Source of the DNA: a virus
IMG/VR virus record: IMGVR_UViG_3300044808_000089
Coordinates: 1-40,883 of that record
DNA length: 40,883 nucleotides
Reading direction: 5' to 3' (one strand)
Program-made: the position numbers and the translations under genes
Part shown: piece by piece, positions 91-9,405 of the stretch
How the letters are laid out: each line of letters starts with the position of its first letter
Position numbering within the stretch: the stretch's first letter is position 1
The notes under the pieces: generated by a model
Databases searched by the model: none
The model's input: the letters and a program-made list of their open reading frames with translations, nothing else
Told to the model about the DNA's origin: nothing

Positions 91-693
91 TACCGCGTCA
101 GCTTGCTGCGCGGAGATTTCATTATCTTAGCCGCCTGCACAGGACTCAGGAAAACCGCTATCTTGTCGCGCAAGTGGGAGGAAGTAAAACTTGATGTCGA
201 GTTTCCTTCTATTTTCCTGCCGAAAAAGGACAGCAAGAATCGGCGTTCAAATAGATTGCCGTTGCCGCAGTTTTGCGTTGAGGCGTTAAAACAGCTACCA
301 AGCTATCAAAAACACGAATACCTCTTTCCGGCTCGTCCGAACGTCAAATACCGCAACGTGGCTGAATTTCAAAAGCCGCACGCTTGGGATATTGGAAAAC
401 GATTTCGCCGGATTTGTGATTTGGCGGGAATAACGGATTTAAGAATTCATGATCTGCGGCATTTCGCAACGACGATGCTCTTTATTGAAGGCGTCTCGGA
501 TGCCATCATCAGAAAAATGACCGGTCGCCGCTCCGAAGAGCTTGAACGGTATAAACATCTCTCGCCGGAGTTCTCTCGCCAGACAACGGAACTCATTGCC
601 GGAAAACTGGTTGAGGAGCTTGAGGGTACAAATTGGGGCACAGGGGCGAAAATCAAGAAAGCCGTCAAGGTGACGGCTCTCCAAATTCAGTAA
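91..693 (+). pseudogene. Integrase remnant, C-terminal catalytic half of a tyrosine recombinase
   Basis: About 200 codons cover only the catalytic domain of a recombinase closely similar to the complete integrase at 788-1909. Shared blocks include FIILAACTGLRKTAILSRKW, LPKKDSKN and HDLRHFATT. The N-terminal arm-binding and core-binding domains are missing; the frame starts abruptly after the upstream transposase stop, and the first usable start (TTG at 103) lies inside the domain. The conserved catalytic motif G-H-R reads G-R-R here (codon CGC at 526-528), so the third active-site residue is lost, while the Tyr in ERYKHL remains. Truncation plus this substitution mark it as a dead relic, probably of a related element that used the same tRNA. 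It is convergent with the intact integrase. Confidence 0.88.
661..677. repeat. Perfect 7-bp stem hairpin at the 3' end of the integrase remnant
   Basis: GCCGTCA and TGACGGC flank a 3-nt loop. There is no T-run on either strand, so it is not a standard terminator. It sits in the last codons of the integrase remnant, 30 bp from the tRNA fragment, and could be a recombination-associated hairpin or an element end. Confidence 0.5.
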
Positions 694-706
694 ATGAAGG
701 GTTTAG

Positions 707-768
707 TGGCGGGACCGACGGGGCTCGAACCCGCGACCTCCAACGTGACAGGCTGGCGTTCTAACCAA
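707..768. other. Probable attachment site (left att) of the phage/prophage
   Basis: A partial tRNA 3' end directly beside an integrase gene (its stop is 20 bp away) is the usual signature of a tyrosine-recombinase att core. The orientation predicts that the intact tRNA-Asp lies at the far right end of the element on the minus strand. No second copy of this core was seen in the window. Confidence 0.75.
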
Positions 769-770
769 AC
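707..770 (-). tRNA. tRNA-Asp(GTC) 3' fragment, 5' end missing
   Basis: On the minus strand the sequence reads through the end of the D-arm (GGTTAGAAC), the anticodon arm CCAGC-CTGTCAC-GTTGG with anticodon GTC (747-749), the variable loop, the T-arm GCGGG-TTCGAGC-CCCGT, the acceptor 3' strand CGGTCCC, discriminator G and an encoded CCA ending at 707. G73 with GTC fits tRNA-Asp. The 5' acceptor strand and the 5' half of the D-arm are missing; phage-side sequence stands in their place from about 768 on. The fragment is therefore not functional as it stands. It matches the displaced tRNA 3' end left when a tRNA-targeting integrase inserts an element. Confidence 0.85.
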
Positions 771-787
771 TTCACATTTAAAATCAA

Positions 788-1909
788 TTACTTAGAGCCG
801 TCGTTTTCCTGCTGTACCTTATTTTGTGCCTTTTTGGTCTTCAATTCGTCTTCCAGCTTACCAGCGATTAAATCAACTGTTTGCTGTTTAAAATCATGAG
901 ATAGGTGCTTATAACGCTCTAATTCGTCTGACCTATGACCAGTCATTTTACGAATAATAGCGTCTGATACTCCGCTGGTAAACAAAGCCGTAGTAGCAAA
1001 GTGACGTAAATCGTGAATCTTTAAGTCAGTGATGTTTGCCAATTTTGCAATTCGTCTAAACCGTTTCCCTAAATCCCACGCATACGGCTTTGAAAATGCC
1101 TCAGCATCACGATATTTCACGTTTGGACGTGCAGGGAACAGGTAGTCATGCTTCGCATAACTTGGAAGCTGTTTTAAAGCCACTACAGCAAATTCTGGCA
1201 ATGGCAACCTATTAGAGCGTTTATTTTTACTGTCTTTCTTGGGTAAATGGAAATACGGATATTCGCTATCAAGACTTACTTCGTTCCACTTACGAGACAA
1301 AATAGCTGTCTTACGCAAGCCAGTACAAGCAGCCAAGATAATAAATCCCTGTAATTCAAAATCCTTCTCCTGTTGGCATTGGTCAATGAGGGACGCAAGT
1401 TCCGAGACTTCAACGAATCTGTCTCTCGGTTCTGGCTCGGTCTGCTGCGGTATTACTTTGGCAGGATTGTCGTCATATTTCTTCCACGCAATCGCAAAGT
1501 TAAAAGCAGAGTTAAAAATGGTTCGATAATGATTGACGGTTGAAGCTGCTAATGTCTCGGCTAACTCGTTCAAAAAATCTTGAATCATCTCAGGTGATAA
1601 GTTTCGAGCTTTTATCTTCCTGAACTTTTCGAGGCGATGCAGCTTGTAATGAAACGCTCGTTTATTCTTAGCGTGTCTCTCCCACCAAAAATCCAAGATT
1701 TCACCAAATGTGATGCTCTCGAATTTTCTTTGGGGAGTAAGTTTATTTTCAGCCACTTGTCCAAGTCTTCTGATTCTGAACTGTGTTGCGGCAACTGGGT
1801 CTGTCGTGTGCGCTGATTCTTTGATTTGCTTTCCCGTTTCATCACGATAAGTAATCCAAAGCTGGTCATTTGTTTTACTACGCTTAAAAACGCCTTTCGG
1901 TAGTTTCAT
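788..1909 (-). CDS. int: Phage integrase, tyrosine recombinase
   Basis: A complete 373-residue tyrosine recombinase that would catalyse site-specific integration and excision at the neighbouring tRNA-Asp site. The N-terminal 60 residues look like an arm-type DNA-binding domain (ITYRDETGKQIKE), residues about 65-150 are a SAM-like core-binding domain, and the catalytic domain follows. Active-site residues are visible: R199 in CTGLRK, a Lys in KKDSKNK near 225-230, H299-x-x-R302 in HDLRH, H325 in GHR, and nucleophile Y333 in ERYKHL. The start is well set by AAGGAGGAAC just upstream of the ATG. The C-terminus points at the att site. The tail is Lys/Gln-rich. It is the last gene of the leftward early block. 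Confidence 0.95.
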   Translation of the reverse strand: MKLPKGVFKRSKTNDQLWITYRDETGKQIKESAHTTDPVAATQFRIRRLGQVAENKLTPQRKFESITFGEILDFWWERHAKNKRAFHYKLHRLEKFRKIKARNLSPEMIQDFLNELAETLAASTVNHYRTIFNSAFNFAIAWKKYDDNPAKVIPQQTEPEPRDRFVEVSELASLIDQCQQEKDFELQGFIILAACTGLRKTAILSRKWNEVSLDSEYPYFHLPKKDSKNKRSNRLPLPEFAVVALKQLPSYAKHDYLFPARPNVKYRDAEAFSKPYAWDLGKRFRRIAKLANITDLKIHDLRHFATTALFTSGVSDAIIRKMTGHRSDELERYKHLSHDFKQQTVDLIAGKLEDELKTKKAQNKVQQENDGSK

Positions 1910-3437: not shown

Positions 3438-3716
3438 GGTAGGGGGCTTATACCCTTCACTAATTGACCCAAAATGTGCGCCTTGTTCCCATAGACATTG
3501 CCCTTCGGCATAACAAAGCATTGCATTATGAGTTCGACATTTAGCTTTCTTTGTCCAGACAATGACAGTGATGATTTTCATTCGCTGCCTAGCCTTGCTC
3601 CAGATGGTTGTTTTTACTTTTCGAGGAAAACCGAAGTAAGCAAGCTTACAGCCTTTAAGAGGATGATGATAGACGCTTGATTTAAGCGCATCAATGAAGG
3701 AGGGTTCGTCTTGCAC
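3426..3716 (-). CDS. Hypothetical protein, 96 aa, GTG start
   Basis: Not recognised. The frame is open from a GTG at 3716 to a TAA within the hairpin at 3426. It has a Lys/Arg-rich centre (KVKTTIWSKARQRMK) and two Cys in the C-terminal half (KCRTHNAMLCYAEGQC), with a hydrophobic strand IITVIVW. Composition looks protein-like and no better frame exists on this strand. A TATAAT box lies about 35 bp upstream (3751-3756). There is no clear ribosome binding site, so the start is uncertain. Confidence 0.5.
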   Translation of the reverse strand: MQDEPSFIDALKSSVYHHPLKGCKLAYFGFPRKVKTTIWSKARQRMKIITVIVWTKKAKCRTHNAMLCYAEGQCLWEQGAHFGSISEGYKPPTSLD

Positions 3717-5117: not shown

Positions 5118-5476
5118 AATTGATTATTTAATTACACCCCGCCCTTAACTCTGCTAATACCTATGCAGAACTTAATGAGAGTTATGTATCAGTTAATCTC
5201 AGGCTGCTCAGTTCAGACTGGTCATTTCGTGGGCGGGTATCATTCGTTCCACAGTGTCCAAGCTACCGTACTTAGGTGTTACGCCTAGTAGTTTCCATTC
5301 GGCTAAACCTTATACAGCTCTCGGACACAGCAGAGGGAACGATACACGAAATGTTGTAGTATTTGCTATTTATCGTCGGCAACACGCTAAACGCGACGTT
5401 TAACTGAATTGTAGGAATTTCTTGTTTCTCTAAACGGCGGAAATTCACTTGAAACTAAATCTGGATAACGATTAAT
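5118..5476 (-). ncRNA. Structured RNA region 1, no gene, within the leftward early transcript
   Basis: No credible ORF. The centre (5223-5353) folds through nested perfect helices: CATTTCGTG with CACGAAATG (9 bp), TATC with GATA, CGTTCC with GGAACG, and GTGTCC with GGACAC, closing around an inner branched part with a TAGG/CCTA hairpin. On the minus strand, hairpins TAAACG-TCG-CGTTTA and TCTGC-loop-GCAGA flank it. The order of nested pairs over 130 nt is hard to explain by chance. It may be a stable ncRNA domain or a long 5' UTR for the small genes at 5117 and below. Family unknown. Confidence 0.65.
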
Positions 5477-5787
5477 TTATATACGAATCATCACATCCCC
5501 CGATTTCGGGTCGTGTTTGTGACGCTTCAACTTTTTTATTTCTTCTTGTAATTCTCTGATAGCTTCCCAAGTGGAAGGTAAAGATGTATCCCAATCTTCG
5601 TTGAGTAAATCGGTGAAAGGTTCTCTGGTTTTAAGTACGTCCATAATTTGTTCGTACTTTCCGCCAGTTGTGAAGTCACCTTTTGCTTCACTGAGCTTAG
5701 ATAAAATGTCTAATAGCTCTGTGGTGGTCTTGTTCTCCATAGAGTTTTGACTTTCTGTTATTCCAGATTCAGTTGTAAATGAACTTC
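5439..5787 (-). ncRNA. Long-range helix motif, copy 2, enclosing an 87-aa gene
   Basis: On the minus strand GAAGTTCA (5780-5787) pairs with TGAATTTC (5440-5447). After a symmetric 8/8 internal loop, TGAATCTGGA (5762-5771) pairs with TCCAGATTTA (5456-5465). The 3' side of the loop (GTTTCAAG) is almost the same as in copy 1. The 87-codon gene lies inside this helix, so the coding region would be presented as one large loop. Confidence 0.6.
5477..5740 (-). CDS. Hypothetical protein, 87 aa, inside an RNA helix frame
   Basis: Not recognised. Helical N-terminal half (TELLDILSKLSEAKGDF) and a C-terminal basic/acidic coiled segment (AIRELQEEIKKLKRHKH). The last residues are MIRI. It has no Cys and no membrane segment. 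Unusually, the gene is bracketed on both sides by structured RNA, and the flanks pair with each other (5440-5465 with 5762-5787). The upstream region (AAAGTCAAAACTCT) has no Shine-Dalgarno site. The unit could be a small regulator whose expression depends on RNA folding; that is inference. Confidence 0.7.
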   Translation of the reverse strand: MENKTTTELLDILSKLSEAKGDFTTGGKYEQIMDVLKTREPFTDLLNEDWDTSLPSTWEAIRELQEEIKKLKRHKHDPKSGDVMIRI

Positions 5788-5810
5788 TACCGCTTGCAAA
5801 CGGTATGATG

Positions 5811-5937
5811 AGGTTGTTTTATTCCCTGAGAGTTTATTAAGCTCTGGAGTGCTAGCAACTGTAATTGAACATTCAAACTTTGACAAGTTTGTAGTAGATG
5901 CGAGTTTCTCAAACTCCTTACTAGCACATCACAACTT
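5811..5937 (-). ncRNA. Structured RNA region 2, cloverleaf-like module
   Basis: Nested and side-by-side helices are visible: AGGTTGT (5811-5817) with ACAACTT (5931-5937, with one G-U on the plus strand), GTGCTAG (5849-5855) with CTAGCAC (5921-5927), and three hairpins: AGAG/CTCT (5829-5845), CAAACTT/AAGTTTG (5874-5891) and GAGTTT/AAACTC (5902-5916). A further hairpin, CCGTTTGCAAGCGG on the minus strand, lies just outside. It is not a tRNA: there is no CCA, T-loop or anticodon arm. Confidence 0.6.
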
Positions 5938-5944
5938 ATTAAAT

Positions 5945-6105
5945 GGAAATTCACTTGAAACTGTTGACGATACTGAGATTGATTCTATCCATGGATAGGT
6001 GAGTAACCACGCCCTGAACGTTACAGGTGACGTACTCAGTCATAAGGCACACTCTGGTTAGCGTGAAGATTACACGCCTACATCAACAGATTTAAATGAA
6101 CTTCC
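5945..6105 (-). ncRNA. Long-range helix motif, copy 1, enclosing a branched RNA domain
   Basis: On the minus strand GGAAGTTCA (6097-6105) pairs with TGAATTTCC (5945-5953). After a symmetric 7/7 internal loop, CTGTTGATG (complement of 6081-6089) pairs with CGTCAACAG (5961-5969). Inside are GCGTG/CACGC, TAACCA/TGGTTA with an inner CCTG/CAGG hairpin, and a perfect 14-bp palindrome CTATCCATGGATAG. Compared with copy 2, the first helix and the 3' loop strand are conserved, while the second helix differs in sequence but keeps pairing. Confidence 0.65.
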
Positions 6106-6191
6106 TACCTCAGTCCATCCAATAATCGCCGCCTCCGGTAATGAACACAATTATTGAATGAAGTGGGGTAACAATTTATTTACTAAACGCT

Positions 6192-6259
6192 GCTGGCGAC
6201 CGTTAGGAGAATGAGGAATTATGGGGTCTATATGCCTAGGCGCATCTCTCCCTACCAGC
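6192..6259 (-). ncRNA. Leader stem-loop downstream of the early attenuator
   Basis: GCTGG with CCAGC (outer) and TAGGGAGA with TCTCCTA (inner, minus-strand reading) close a loop that contains the palindrome GCCTAGGC. It lies between the leader terminator and RNA module copy 1 and is part of the same leftward leader. No coding potential is apparent from 6112 to 6270. Confidence 0.5.
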
Positions 6260-6273
6260 AACATTCAGGAAAC

Positions 6274-6324
6274 AAAAACCCCGCCGTCCGACCAAGGAGT
6301 AGCGAGGTTAAATGTTGGTCGGAC
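6274..6324 (-). terminator. Leader terminator with a competing antiterminator stem (early leftward transcript)
   Basis: On the minus strand AACCTCGC pairs with GCGGGGTT (one G-U) and is followed by TTTTTG, an intrinsic terminator only about 70 nt into the transcript. A perfect 9-bp stem, GTCCGACCA (6316-6324) with TGGTCGGAC (6286-6294), overlaps it and cannot form at the same time, since the terminator's 5' arm lies in its loop and its 3' arm follows. This is the layout of an attenuator. Confidence 0.65.
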
Positions 6325-6352
6325 ATTTGTTTATTTGGCTGTTGTTTTCTTT

Positions 6353-6380
6353 ATCATAGCAAGTCTATAAACGCCGTCAA
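6353..6380 (-). promoter_or_regulatory. Early leftward promoter
   Basis: TTGACG (-35, complement of 6375-6380), 16-bp spacer, TATGAT (-10, complement of 6353-6358). The -35 directly abuts a TTATCCAC box. The start is followed by AAAGAAAA, as at the late leftward promoter. It would drive the structured RNAs and the small-gene/nuclease/integrase block. Confidence 0.7.
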
Positions 6381-6491: not shown

Positions 6492-6671
6492 ATGAATAAA
6501 ACAAGAGAAATAACAAAAGAGGATATTGGTGTGTCTCTCAAATGGCTGGAAGGAAAACAGCCTTTAGCCGAAGTCTCAAAACACTTCCAAGTGTTCAATA
6601 TGAACTCGTATCACCGGCTTGCTATGTGTCTTCGTGAAGCCTATAAAGACGGAAAATTAATAATCAAATAA
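6492..6671 (+). CDS. Small HTH-like protein, 59 aa
   Basis: Starts MNKTREITKEDIGVSLKWL and continues with LAEVSKHFQVFNMNSY, which reads like a helix-turn-helix (an 'LAEVSKHFQV' first helix and a following recognition helix). It is the first gene after the early rightward promoter, the place where phages often encode a regulator. It ends immediately before the next ATG (TAAATG). The HTH call is by pattern only; it is the best candidate for a transcription regulator in the window, since no classical CI/Cro repressor is visible. Confidence 0.65.
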   Translation: MNKTREITKEDIGVSLKWLEGKQPLAEVSKHFQVFNMNSYHRLAMCLREAYKDGKLIIK

Positions 6672-6869
6672 ATGACTAAAGAAATTAACGAACGGTATGT
6701 GAAATTATCCTCACGACTTCCGTTCGATAAAGACATTGCTCTTGGTGATGACATCACAGTTGTTATCAACAATAAAAGCTATATCGCCAACTGTGTGAAA
6801 GTTGCCCATCTCGACAAACAAGATGGCTCAATGGATATTGTTTATAACCTAAAATTCCTCGCAGAATGA
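6672..6869 (+). CDS. Small hypothetical protein, 65 aa, beta-rich
   Basis: Not recognised. Alternating hydrophobic strands (DDITVVINNKSYIANCVKVA, then MDIVYNLKFL) suggest a small beta-barrel or OB-like fold. It follows its upstream neighbour without a gap and overlaps the next gene by 4 bp (ATGA), so it is translated as part of one operon. Confidence 0.7.
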   Translation: MTKEINERYVKLSSRLPFDKDIALGDDITVVINNKSYIANCVKVAHLDKQDGSMDIVYNLKFLAE

Positions 6870-7153
6870 AACTATTAAAATGGCTGTTTGAGCCACAATT
6901 CAGTGGTCTTGAAGCTTTAGGAATCATACTAATTTCTGTCATATCTTATTCCTCAAGCGATTGGTTCCTACTTCTATACATCCCTCTATTCATTGTGAAT
7001 GGATTTATAAATACATGGTTATTTTTATCTAAATATCCTCAACCCAACGTCCATGTTAAGAGTTTAGAAGAAGCCATAGAACTGATTAAAAAGAATGGAG
7101 AAGAACGTAATAATGGACTGAATATCATTGTAGATAATCCAATCAATAATTAA
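6866..7153 (+). CDS. Small membrane protein, 95 aa
   Basis: Two hydrophobic segments are visible: about residues 15-35 (EALGIILISVISYSS) and 36-58 (WFLLLYIPLFIVNGFINTWL). A cytoplasmic-looking charged tail (EEAIELIKKNGEERN) follows. Function unknown; a superinfection-exclusion or inner-membrane accessory role is possible but not shown. The ATGA overlap with the previous gene fixes the start. Confidence 0.7.
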   Translation: MKLLKWLFEPQFSGLEALGIILISVISYSSSDWFLLLYIPLFIVNGFINTWLFLSKYPQPNVHVKSLEEAIELIKKNGEERNNGLNIIVDNPINN

Positions 7154-7162
7154 CTCACAACT

Positions 7163-7864
7163 ATGAAATATCCCAGCACAAATATCACCTTTGGAGGAAT
7201 GGAGGACGGAGGACTCACTGTTAAAGTCAAAGACTCCTCGAATCCCAAAACTAAATGGATAGTTTGGAAAGCTGACAAAGAAAACCCCAATCAAGACAGT
7301 GAAGCCTTCGCTGATTTGCAAAGAGTAAAATTCGGGGAAGTAATCGGCGTAACGTATGGAGAAAAAGAAAAATCCTTCACTGGCAGAGAAGGCAATACCA
7401 TCACTTACACAGAACGAACAATTTATAAAGTATTGCCTCCTGTAGCCCAACCAGCTCCGCAGCCTCATCAAGTATCATCTCAGGCAAAAACAAGCCCTAG
7501 CGTGTCAAATACAGCCTCTCAGAGCAAATCTGATGCACAATCTGATGATAACTATTGGGATAAGAAAGCATATAAGCAATGTCTTTGGAATTACTGGTTA
7601 GCCCTGAACACTCCAGAGAAGTTAGGCAGGACTCAGAACGCTAAACTATCAGATATTGAAATGGATTCCGTATGGATTGTATTCAAACAGATTGAAGCTG
7701 ATGCTGATAGACGTTTCTCCCCACTTGCTCAAGCTGTTCAGAAAACAAACCCTGACTTCTTCAAACAAGATGAACAATTACCAATAATCAATCAGGATGA
7801 GGAAATGCCACCCATTGAAACTTATGATGAGAATGAAGTAAGCGTAGAAGATGTTCCGTTTTAA
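7163..7864 (+). CDS. Probable single-stranded DNA-binding protein with SSB-type acidic tip
   Basis: A 233-residue protein. Residues 1-95 are beta-rich (PKTKWIVWKADKE, FGEVIGVTYGEKEKSFTG, ITYTERTIYKVLP) and could be an OB-type domain. Residues 95-130 are a Pro/Gln/Ser linker, 130-185 a helical domain (YKQCLWNYWLALNTPEKLG), and the last residues are acidic and end EVSVEDVPF, very like the DDDIPF tip with which SSB recruits partner proteins. It probably coats ssDNA during phage replication or recombination. The N-terminal fold differs from canonical SSB and is not proven. It is the only recognisable replication-type gene in the early rightward operon. Confidence 0.65.
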   Translation: MKYPSTNITFGGMEDGGLTVKVKDSSNPKTKWIVWKADKENPNQDSEAFADLQRVKFGEVIGVTYGEKEKSFTGREGNTITYTERTIYKVLPPVAQPAPQPHQVSSQAKTSPSVSNTASQSKSDAQSDDNYWDKKAYKQCLWNYWLALNTPEKLGRTQNAKLSDIEMDSVWIVFKQIEADADRRFSPLAQAVQKTNPDFFKQDEQLPIINQDEEMPPIETYDENEVSVEDVPF

Positions 7865-7893
7865 TTAAATAGGGTAGTGACCAACGCTAAAAA

Positions 7894-8229
7894 ATGTCAG
7901 CAGATATGATGATTATATCCAAAGAAGATAATTCTTCTTTTGAGGGTGATGGGACAGACAAAGCTTTCCAGATAGATGAAACTTCTATGGGCGAACCTTG
8001 GACTGAATTCGGTAAATGGTTTGGTGAAAGATACTGTGGCGCACCTGGTATATTAGAACAATTACACGGCATTAGTAGTCATACGTACGTCAAGTTAACA
8101 GATGTTGACATTGATGCCATCTTAAAAGCATTTGATTCCATGGAACATCGAGAAAGTTTAACAAGAGATAAATTAGAGAAGTTTTTGAACGAGCATAAAG
8201 ATAAACATATCAGCACAGAAAATTGGTAG
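7894..8229 (+). CDS. Hypothetical protein, 111 aa
   Basis: Not recognised. Acidic start (MMIISKEDNSSFEGDG), an aromatic patch (EPWTEFGKWFGERYC) and a helical C-terminus (DIDAILKAFDSMEHRESL). The ATG at 7894 may be replaced by ATG at 7906 or 7909. It is the last gene of the early rightward operon and is followed by a terminator at 8238. A position next to the SSB-like gene hints at a DNA-metabolism role, which is inference. Confidence 0.65.
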   Translation: MSADMMIISKEDNSSFEGDGTDKAFQIDETSMGEPWTEFGKWFGERYCGAPGILEQLHGISSHTYVKLTDVDIDAILKAFDSMEHRESLTRDKLEKFLNEHKDKHISTENW

Positions 8230-8673: not shown

Positions 8674-9405
8674 ATGGCGCAGGAGTGGACATTAGAGGCA
8701 GTTAAAAAGCGGCTCATAGAAATTAAACAAAAAGGTTTTATTCCGATTCCTAGCGGAATGCACCGAAGTGATGACGGCATAGTTGGACAGATTTTAGAAC
8801 GCGAATTTGGAGTTGCCGAGAATAATATCAGGCTTGGTGATTTAGGGAAATTCGAGCTAAAAGGAATCCGTAAAACATCAACCAATCTTACGTTATCGCA
8901 CAAGAAACCGGAACGAGGGATGACTCCGATTCAGATATTCGACAAATTCGGTTATATCCGCCCATCGAAAAGCAATCCAAATGTTTTAAAGAAAAAGTTG
9001 TTCGTTACCGTCAAGGGCACGAAAGAAAACAGCGTCAAGCTTCGACTTCGCGGAATAGGAGATGCTGCACTTGATATGGTTACAGGCGCGACGCTTCTGT
9101 GCGAATGGGATTTAACAAATTCGCTTAAAAAGATTGACCAAATTATTTTGGTTTTCGCCGAGAGTAGCGCCAAGACGAGAGATGCAAGCGAAACCTTTCA
9201 TTATCAGAAAGCATTTTTGCTCGATGGATTAAAGCCAATAAAAGATTTGGTTGATAAAGATATTATCGTGATTGATTTTTGTATTGACCAGCCGATTGAC
9301 GAAAGCGGTAAACCGCTTGCTTCGGTTCATGACCGAGGACCGCATATTCGGGTTCCGGTTGCAAAACTTTCTAAAGCATATAATCGAGTTGAACAGATTT
9401 TATAA
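8674..9405 (+). CDS. Type II restriction endonuclease, MvaI/BcnI family
   Basis: A 243-residue protein, the usual size for MvaI/BcnI-type enzymes, which cut CCWGG or CCSGG as monomers. The family signature is visible at residues 36-66: GIVGQILEREFGV (early Glu), then GDLGKFELKGIR with D56, E61 and K63 forming the D-x4-E-x-K centre. A basic segment with SHKKPERGMTP follows, and DRGPHIRVP lies near the C-terminus. The start follows a GGGGGG stretch that can serve as ribosome binding site. It converges with the methyltransferase gene and is separated from it by one shared hairpin terminator. Family assignment is good; the exact target site cannot be read from sequence. Confidence 0.8.
   Translation: MAQEWTLEAVKKRLIEIKQKGFIPIPSGMHRSDDGIVGQILEREFGVAENNIRLGDLGKFELKGIRKTSTNLTLSHKKPERGMTPIQIFDKFGYIRPSKSNPNVLKKKLFVTVKGTKENSVKLRLRGIGDAALDMVTGATLLCEWDLTNSLKKIDQIILVFAESSAKTRDASETFHYQKAFLLDGLKPIKDLVDKDIIVIDFCIDQPIDESGKPLASVHDRGPHIRVPVAKLSKAYNRVEQIL

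Follow-up and report, generated by a model that had tools for sequence, protein, structure and literature searches.

Long-range helices carrying a boxA-like strand enclose small genes in phages and resemble the leader-trailer frame of pre-23S rRNA

What purpose could be served by two long-range helices that lie in one phage leader, share much of their arms, and enclose quite different things, one an RNA domain and the other a complete gene? This question is raised by the 40,883-base IMG/VR virus record analysed here (the window, meaning the whole of this stretch), in which both frames are read from the minus strand. The framed transcript is predicted to start at a promoter-like site, TTGACG-16-TATGAT (6353-6380, minus strand), which is a consensus match only; the stretch in which it lies is 96% identical to that of a related phage, L005. 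Downstream of this site is a structured leader of approximately 1.2 kb on the minus strand, with a fold of -377 kcal/mol over 1,251 nt (a value obtained without a shuffle control at that length).

The initial annotation described two copies of a helix motif in this leader, and folds and helix scores place them where it had put them: both are on the minus strand, copy 1 at 6105-5945 and copy 2 at 5795-5432. In copy 1, the 5′ arm (6081-6105), which carries the boxA-like sequence GTTCATTTAAATCT at 6101-6088, pairs with the 3′ arm CGTCAACAGTTTCAAGTGAATTTCC (5945-5969), and the predicted fold of the sequence between them (5970-6080) is a branched RNA domain of about 110 nt. In copy 2, a 34-nt 5′ arm (5762-5795), with the boxA-like sequence GTTCATTTACAACT at 5784-5771, pairs with the 3′ arm TCCAGATTTAGTTTCAAGTGAATTTCCGCCGTTT (5432-5465) around the gene for an 87-aa protein, MENKTTTELLDIL...LKRHKHDPKSGDVMIRI (5477-5740). 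The two kinds of cargo are thus as originally described. The helices are 25 and 34 pairs long, respectively, and both are near-continuous; that of copy 2 is lengthened outward by AAGCGGU/GCCGUUU. The inner helix differs between the copies and pairs in each, as had been claimed. However, the symmetric internal loop (7/7 or 8/8) that had been drawn next to it is mostly paired, with only one or two mismatches per copy at that place.

Single-strand folds of the two framed segments gave z values of -5.2 and -5.8, and no shuffled sequence folded equally low. Pairing between the flanks was then expressed as an ungapped-helix score, calculated between the 130 nt on either side of each gene (extended to 300 nt on the downstream side for L014 and L050); this score replaced full duplexfold energies, which were dominated by long loops. 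Copy 2 scored 57 (shuffle maximum 32) and copy 1 scored 44 (shuffle maximum 38). Taken alone, copy 1 is close to genome-wide chance, since each shuffled window yields 0-6 helices scoring at least 42, and the case for it depends on the shared arms and on comparison across the family. The opposite strand pairs worse (46 instead of 57 for copy 2, and under threshold for copy 1), as is expected if the RNA is read from the minus strand.

Several other structural features of the leader were observed. The whole of it (5120-6370, minus strand) folds into many arms; among them, GGGTTTTTGTTTCCTGA / TCAGGGAATAAAACAACC form an outer helix at the base of a multi-arm domain that surrounds copy 1, and parts of this structure are retained in another phage, L017. 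Just past the promoter (6274-6324, minus strand) there is a possible H-type pseudoknot followed by a U run, in which GTCCGACCAA / TTGGTCGGAC is crossed by ACCTCGC / GGCGGGGT. In the window and L005 these helices were read by eye and were not returned by the search. The leader of L017 has the same pseudoknot topology in a different sequence (score 56 versus a shuffle maximum of 39), and similar crossed helices seem to be present ahead of boxA in L014 and L050. Covariance model matching assigned neither the copy 1 RNA domain nor the leader to an Rfam 15 family.

The window record holds exactly two copies of the 3′ arm, and an exact search with this arm located a third copy in L005 (IMGVR_UViG_3300049432_000210), whose proteins share 35-60% identity with their window counterparts. 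In that phage the arms are the same, the gene between them is a different one of 81 codons, and both sides of the inner helix have changed (CTAGGGTCAA/TTGACCCTAG). At the 3′ arm, L005 and the window have 27 identical bases, although their cargo is different. L017 has the 5′ arm and, between it and the contig end, a homologue of the 81-codon gene. Exact 17-mer matches to the 3′ arm in L003, L004, L006 and L007 were rejected as chance, none having a 5′ arm, and exact 17-mer matches to the neighbouring conserved segment were likewise attributed to chance.

A protein search with the 87-aa gene returned seven more viral loci. Five of these (L014, L050, L052, L054 and L056) have the gene inside a helix of 24-26 pairs with a boxA-like strand in register; the 87-aa family is framed in at least six phages. 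The homologue in L015 (4970-5280) is also framed, with a score of 39 against a shuffle maximum of 38 and without a recognisable boxA, and the locus in L055 is cut by the contig end. The frames of L014 and L050 each hold two genes. The sole cellular match of the 87-aa gene is a truncated copy with a boxA-like 5′ arm, GTTCCTTCACAACTAG, on a contig binned as Acidobacteria (L057, 1250-1465), and that bin is without a 23S gene. A genome scan for a core phage protein, performed as a host search, gave no match. The 87-aa family has no convincing Pfam or PHROGs family, its AlphaFold2 model is weak (pLDDT 62) and gave no fold match, and two other cargo proteins had no match in phages. Neither the leader nor the 87-aa protein had a relative among annotated phage and plasmid records.

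In total, 13 frames were collected, namely the two in the window and 11 in related phages. Those in other phages surround homologues of the 87-aa gene (five), the unrelated 81-aa gene (one) and other unrelated small genes (five, found only through the boxA search described below). For eight cargo genes (seven of the 87-aa family and the 81-aa gene), the frame helix was compared with dinucleotide shuffles of its own flanks, and none of 500 shuffles equalled it in any case. When 292 ATG-started ORFs from ten loci were ranked, framed genes took six of the top seven places.

The 13 frames were then set in one register, with the sequences connected through an artificial linker that did not count as paired. 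Standard pairs made up 86.4% of positions, compared with 66.9% when partners were shuffled and 33-46% when the strands were slid by 1-3 columns. Both sides had changed in 17 of 25 pairs, and the covariation score was 0.575 versus 0.197 (0/500 shuffles). Outside four boxA columns there were 23 G.U pairs and only 3 A.C mismatches; this excess indicates that it is the RNA strand that pairs. The frame is a real, covarying and modular RNA helix. The initial annotation had proposed a modular frame with a covarying inner helix and exchangeable cargo, and had suggested a search for further copies with compensatory changes in that helix. The 13 frames, with these two-sided changes and at least seven unrelated kinds of cargo, strongly support the proposal.

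The 5′ strand of the frames is conserved, and its consensus in the phages, GTTC(T/A)TTGAAAACT, is boxA of the Gram-positive type. The boxA consensus is GYTCTTTAANA in gammaproteobacteria and of the GTTCTTTGAAAACT type in Gram-positives. Among frames found without the use of boxA, L014 and L050 match it at 13-14 of 14 places, L054 and L017 at 12, and the window, L005 and L052 at 11. The match is weak in L056, where it is not significant by itself, and L015 and L055 have none. Of its 14 places, the boxA of the window has 3 that depart from the exact consensus of Gram-positives; an equally good match was found in 18 of 1000 shuffled flanks. In seven of the eight loci with boxA before a gene, it lies 35-44 nt upstream of the start codon. 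In the phages found by protein, conservation was 0.76 for the boxA strand versus 0.58 for its partner. That the boxA strand is conserved above its partner points to selection on that strand itself, and this asymmetry would look like that expected of a protein-binding site on one strand.

To look for frames independently of the cargo gene, viral contigs were scanned with the 16-mer GTTCTTTGAAAACTRG, which gave 62 matches. Six of the 18 matches outside long ORFs opened a strong in-register frame (five distinct, as L086 is the same as L100). As controls, none of the 44 matches inside ORFs did so, and 71 of 7,320 random positions (about 1%) did. One of the frames, L050 (recovered as L089), was already known, and L098, L093, L124 and L100 were new; the 5′ arms of L050 and L093 have the exact boxA consensus. 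In a further frame, L068, the overlap is smaller, and the helix reaches only the end of boxA. Except in L050, the frames from the scan hold complete, unrelated small genes of 142, 69+72, 138, 122 and 113 codons. Since the cargo genes are unrelated, the frame and not the gene is the common element.

A boxA strand within a long-range helix is also found in rRNA operons, which we compared using public plasmid records and E. coli. In Staphylococcus aureus, Peribacillus, Priestia, Acetoanaerobium and Arthrobacter, the pre-23S boxA forms part of the leader-trailer helix: it sits on the 5′ strand and is paired with the trailer, in a register that matches the phage frames. Conservation in the rRNA operons was 0.81 for the boxA strand and 0.61 for its partner. 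In E. coli, boxA is upstream of the 23S leader-trailer helix and not inside it, and no boxA was recognised in a Deinococcus locus. The phage frames are therefore similar to the pre-23S leader-trailer helix of Bacillota and Actinomycetota in their boxA-bearing 5′ strand, variable inner helix, register and strand asymmetry, and, like it, they close around their cargo with a covarying helix of more than 17 bp. In contrast, the phage cargo is one or two genes for proteins of 69-142 aa, or a 110-nt RNA. Pre-rRNA itself was rejected as an explanation: the window record contains no LSU rRNA, the leader gave no Rfam match, and small genes are enclosed in place of rRNA. The likeness that we claim is one of working. 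No named RNA of such a form had been recognised when the helices were first described; given a boxA, a layout and a register like those of pre-23S rRNA, they are neither a nameless RNA class nor categorically new.

Other known systems share less with the frames. The nut sites of lambdoid phages (boxB, boxA and the N protein) also place a boxA in a phage transcript, but in the phage frames boxA belongs to the rrn type and is part of a long-range helix. The RNase III sites of T7 are known as local hairpins between genes and are not known to form a boxA helix around a gene. RNase III-processed phage messages, such as T7 early RNA and dicBF of the Qin prophage (PMC10448788), resemble the frames as phage or prophage dsRNA that is possibly cut. 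Outside rRNA, boxA/Nus antitermination is described for the E. coli suhB leader and others (PMC5725501). Similar to the frames, the suhB leader has an rrn-type boxA ahead of a gene; in contrast, that boxA represses its own gene, and the part of the report considered here mentions no long-range closing helix (PMC5725501). No account of boxA leader-trailer frames around phage genes was found in a search of the open-access literature, and novelty is provisional to that extent.

Based on these comparisons, we consider it somewhat probable that the frame is a phage version of the boxA/leader-trailer frame of pre-23S rRNA, in which a small gene or RNA domain has replaced the rRNA. About the wider proposal our confidence is evenly balanced: phages of several lineages might carry such pre-rRNA mimics, with the host NusB-S10 complex, frame closure and RNase III together making and trimming the phage message. 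The long-range helix, its covariation, the boxA, the register and the enclosure of whole genes were found in the phage sequences, and the working is modelled on the rRNA system, as follows. On emerging from RNA polymerase, boxA would be bound by host NusB and S10, which, with NusA and NusG, would convert the polymerase into an rrn-type antitermination complex. Such a complex could resist Rho and cross the long, structured and poorly translated leader. During transcription of the cargo, boxA would be held near the exit channel, and the emerging 3′ arm would pair with the boxA strand, as has been proposed for pre-rRNA. In E. coli pre-16S, a leader-trailer helix of more than 17 bp is critical, boxA mutations cut activity about three-fold, and boxA tethering is supported as an aid to helix formation (PMC10250234). 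The closed helix would end the use of boxA and would be a likely substrate of RNase III, whose cut would free the cargo as a short RNA separate from the leader and the downstream message. A phage N-like protein would not be needed under this model.

A simpler explanation is that the frame is only a processing or stabilising stem, from which RNase III or another nuclease frees a monocistronic message, and that the likeness to boxA is irrelevant. With 24-34 pairs and few mismatches, the phage helices are of the kind that RNase III typically cuts. They also enclose one or two complete small genes tightly, and L015 has a frame without boxA. However, a stem of this kind would explain neither the higher conservation of the boxA strand relative to its partner nor the new frames that were found by boxA alone, and we regard it as unlikely. 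Alternatively, the helix could serve mainly to mask boxA, with antitermination lasting until the 3′ arm appears, so that the frame acts as a timer or feedback for one small gene. In almost all frames, conserved G.U pairs and mismatches make the pairing of boxA weaker, which would suit a strand that is both bound and paired, and in L068 and L100 a terminator or U run follows the 3′ arm. Most of boxA is nevertheless unpaired in these same two frames, and weak pairs of the same kind occur in the rRNA helix, so a switch is not implied; we think this quite unlikely.

It could also be argued that the arms act at the level of DNA, as inverted repeats for recombination that swap genes between phages. 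The 27 bases at the 3′ arm that are identical in the window and L005, around different cargo and between phages whose proteins are only 35-60% identical, are consistent with this, as are the HNH genes nearby. Against it, the inner arms differ between copies and still pair within each, G.U usage shows that one strand is favoured in pairing, most of the phages have only boxA in common, which is too short for homologous recombination, and a scan of window genes gave no transposase. Such a cassette is very improbable. A transposable element with terminal inverted repeats was rejected, as there are only two 3′ arm copies, the inner arms differ and the window genes scanned include no transposase.

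With respect to the pre-rRNA-like frame that we favour, its place in the phage operon is of interest. The initial annotation had read the leader as part of an early transcript. In the window the frames are promoter-proximal. Several phages have HNH or terminase genes downstream, and the head of a late operon is an equally possible position. A terminase gene lies about 1 kb downstream in L014 and L052, an HNH gene follows in L050 and the window, an endolysin-like gene in L124 and a groEL gene in L056. Based on these neighbours, the frame could plausibly stand at the head of a late operon. The groEL-like chaperonin gene after the framed gene of L056 is complete (6669-8192). In L100 at least eight U residues directly follow the 3′ arm (near 7800), and in L068 a strong terminator hairpin does so (near 3600); transcripts of these framed genes may end there. 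In these two phages the frame would then serve the enclosed gene itself, and antitermination of a downstream operon cannot be its sole purpose.

Some further features of the window were noted. A non-coding segment of 86 nt (5329-5414) is 94% identical to 3294-3379 of L005, whereas protein identity between the two phages is only 35-60%; the segment follows the frame in the window and precedes it in L005. Two similar, convergent integrase-like reading frames (103-693, plus strand, and 788-1909, minus strand), visible as a long inverted similarity at about 100-1,350, flank a weak tRNA match (716-774, minus strand). This region is perhaps an attachment site between two elements. A gene for an MvaI/BcnI-type restriction endonuclease lies at 8674-9405.

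The antitermination and leader-trailer system of rRNA is usually described as serving rRNA, and a phage version whose small cargo can be exchanged would show that the frame is a general module. Phage frames would also offer a short natural substrate for asking whether a boxA-bound complex helps distant strands to meet co-transcriptionally, a question that is hard to study on rRNA of 1.5-3 kb. A boxA together with a matching downstream strand provides a simple rule by which to search for such genes. For the phages themselves, the frames suggest a route to antitermination without an N or Q protein.
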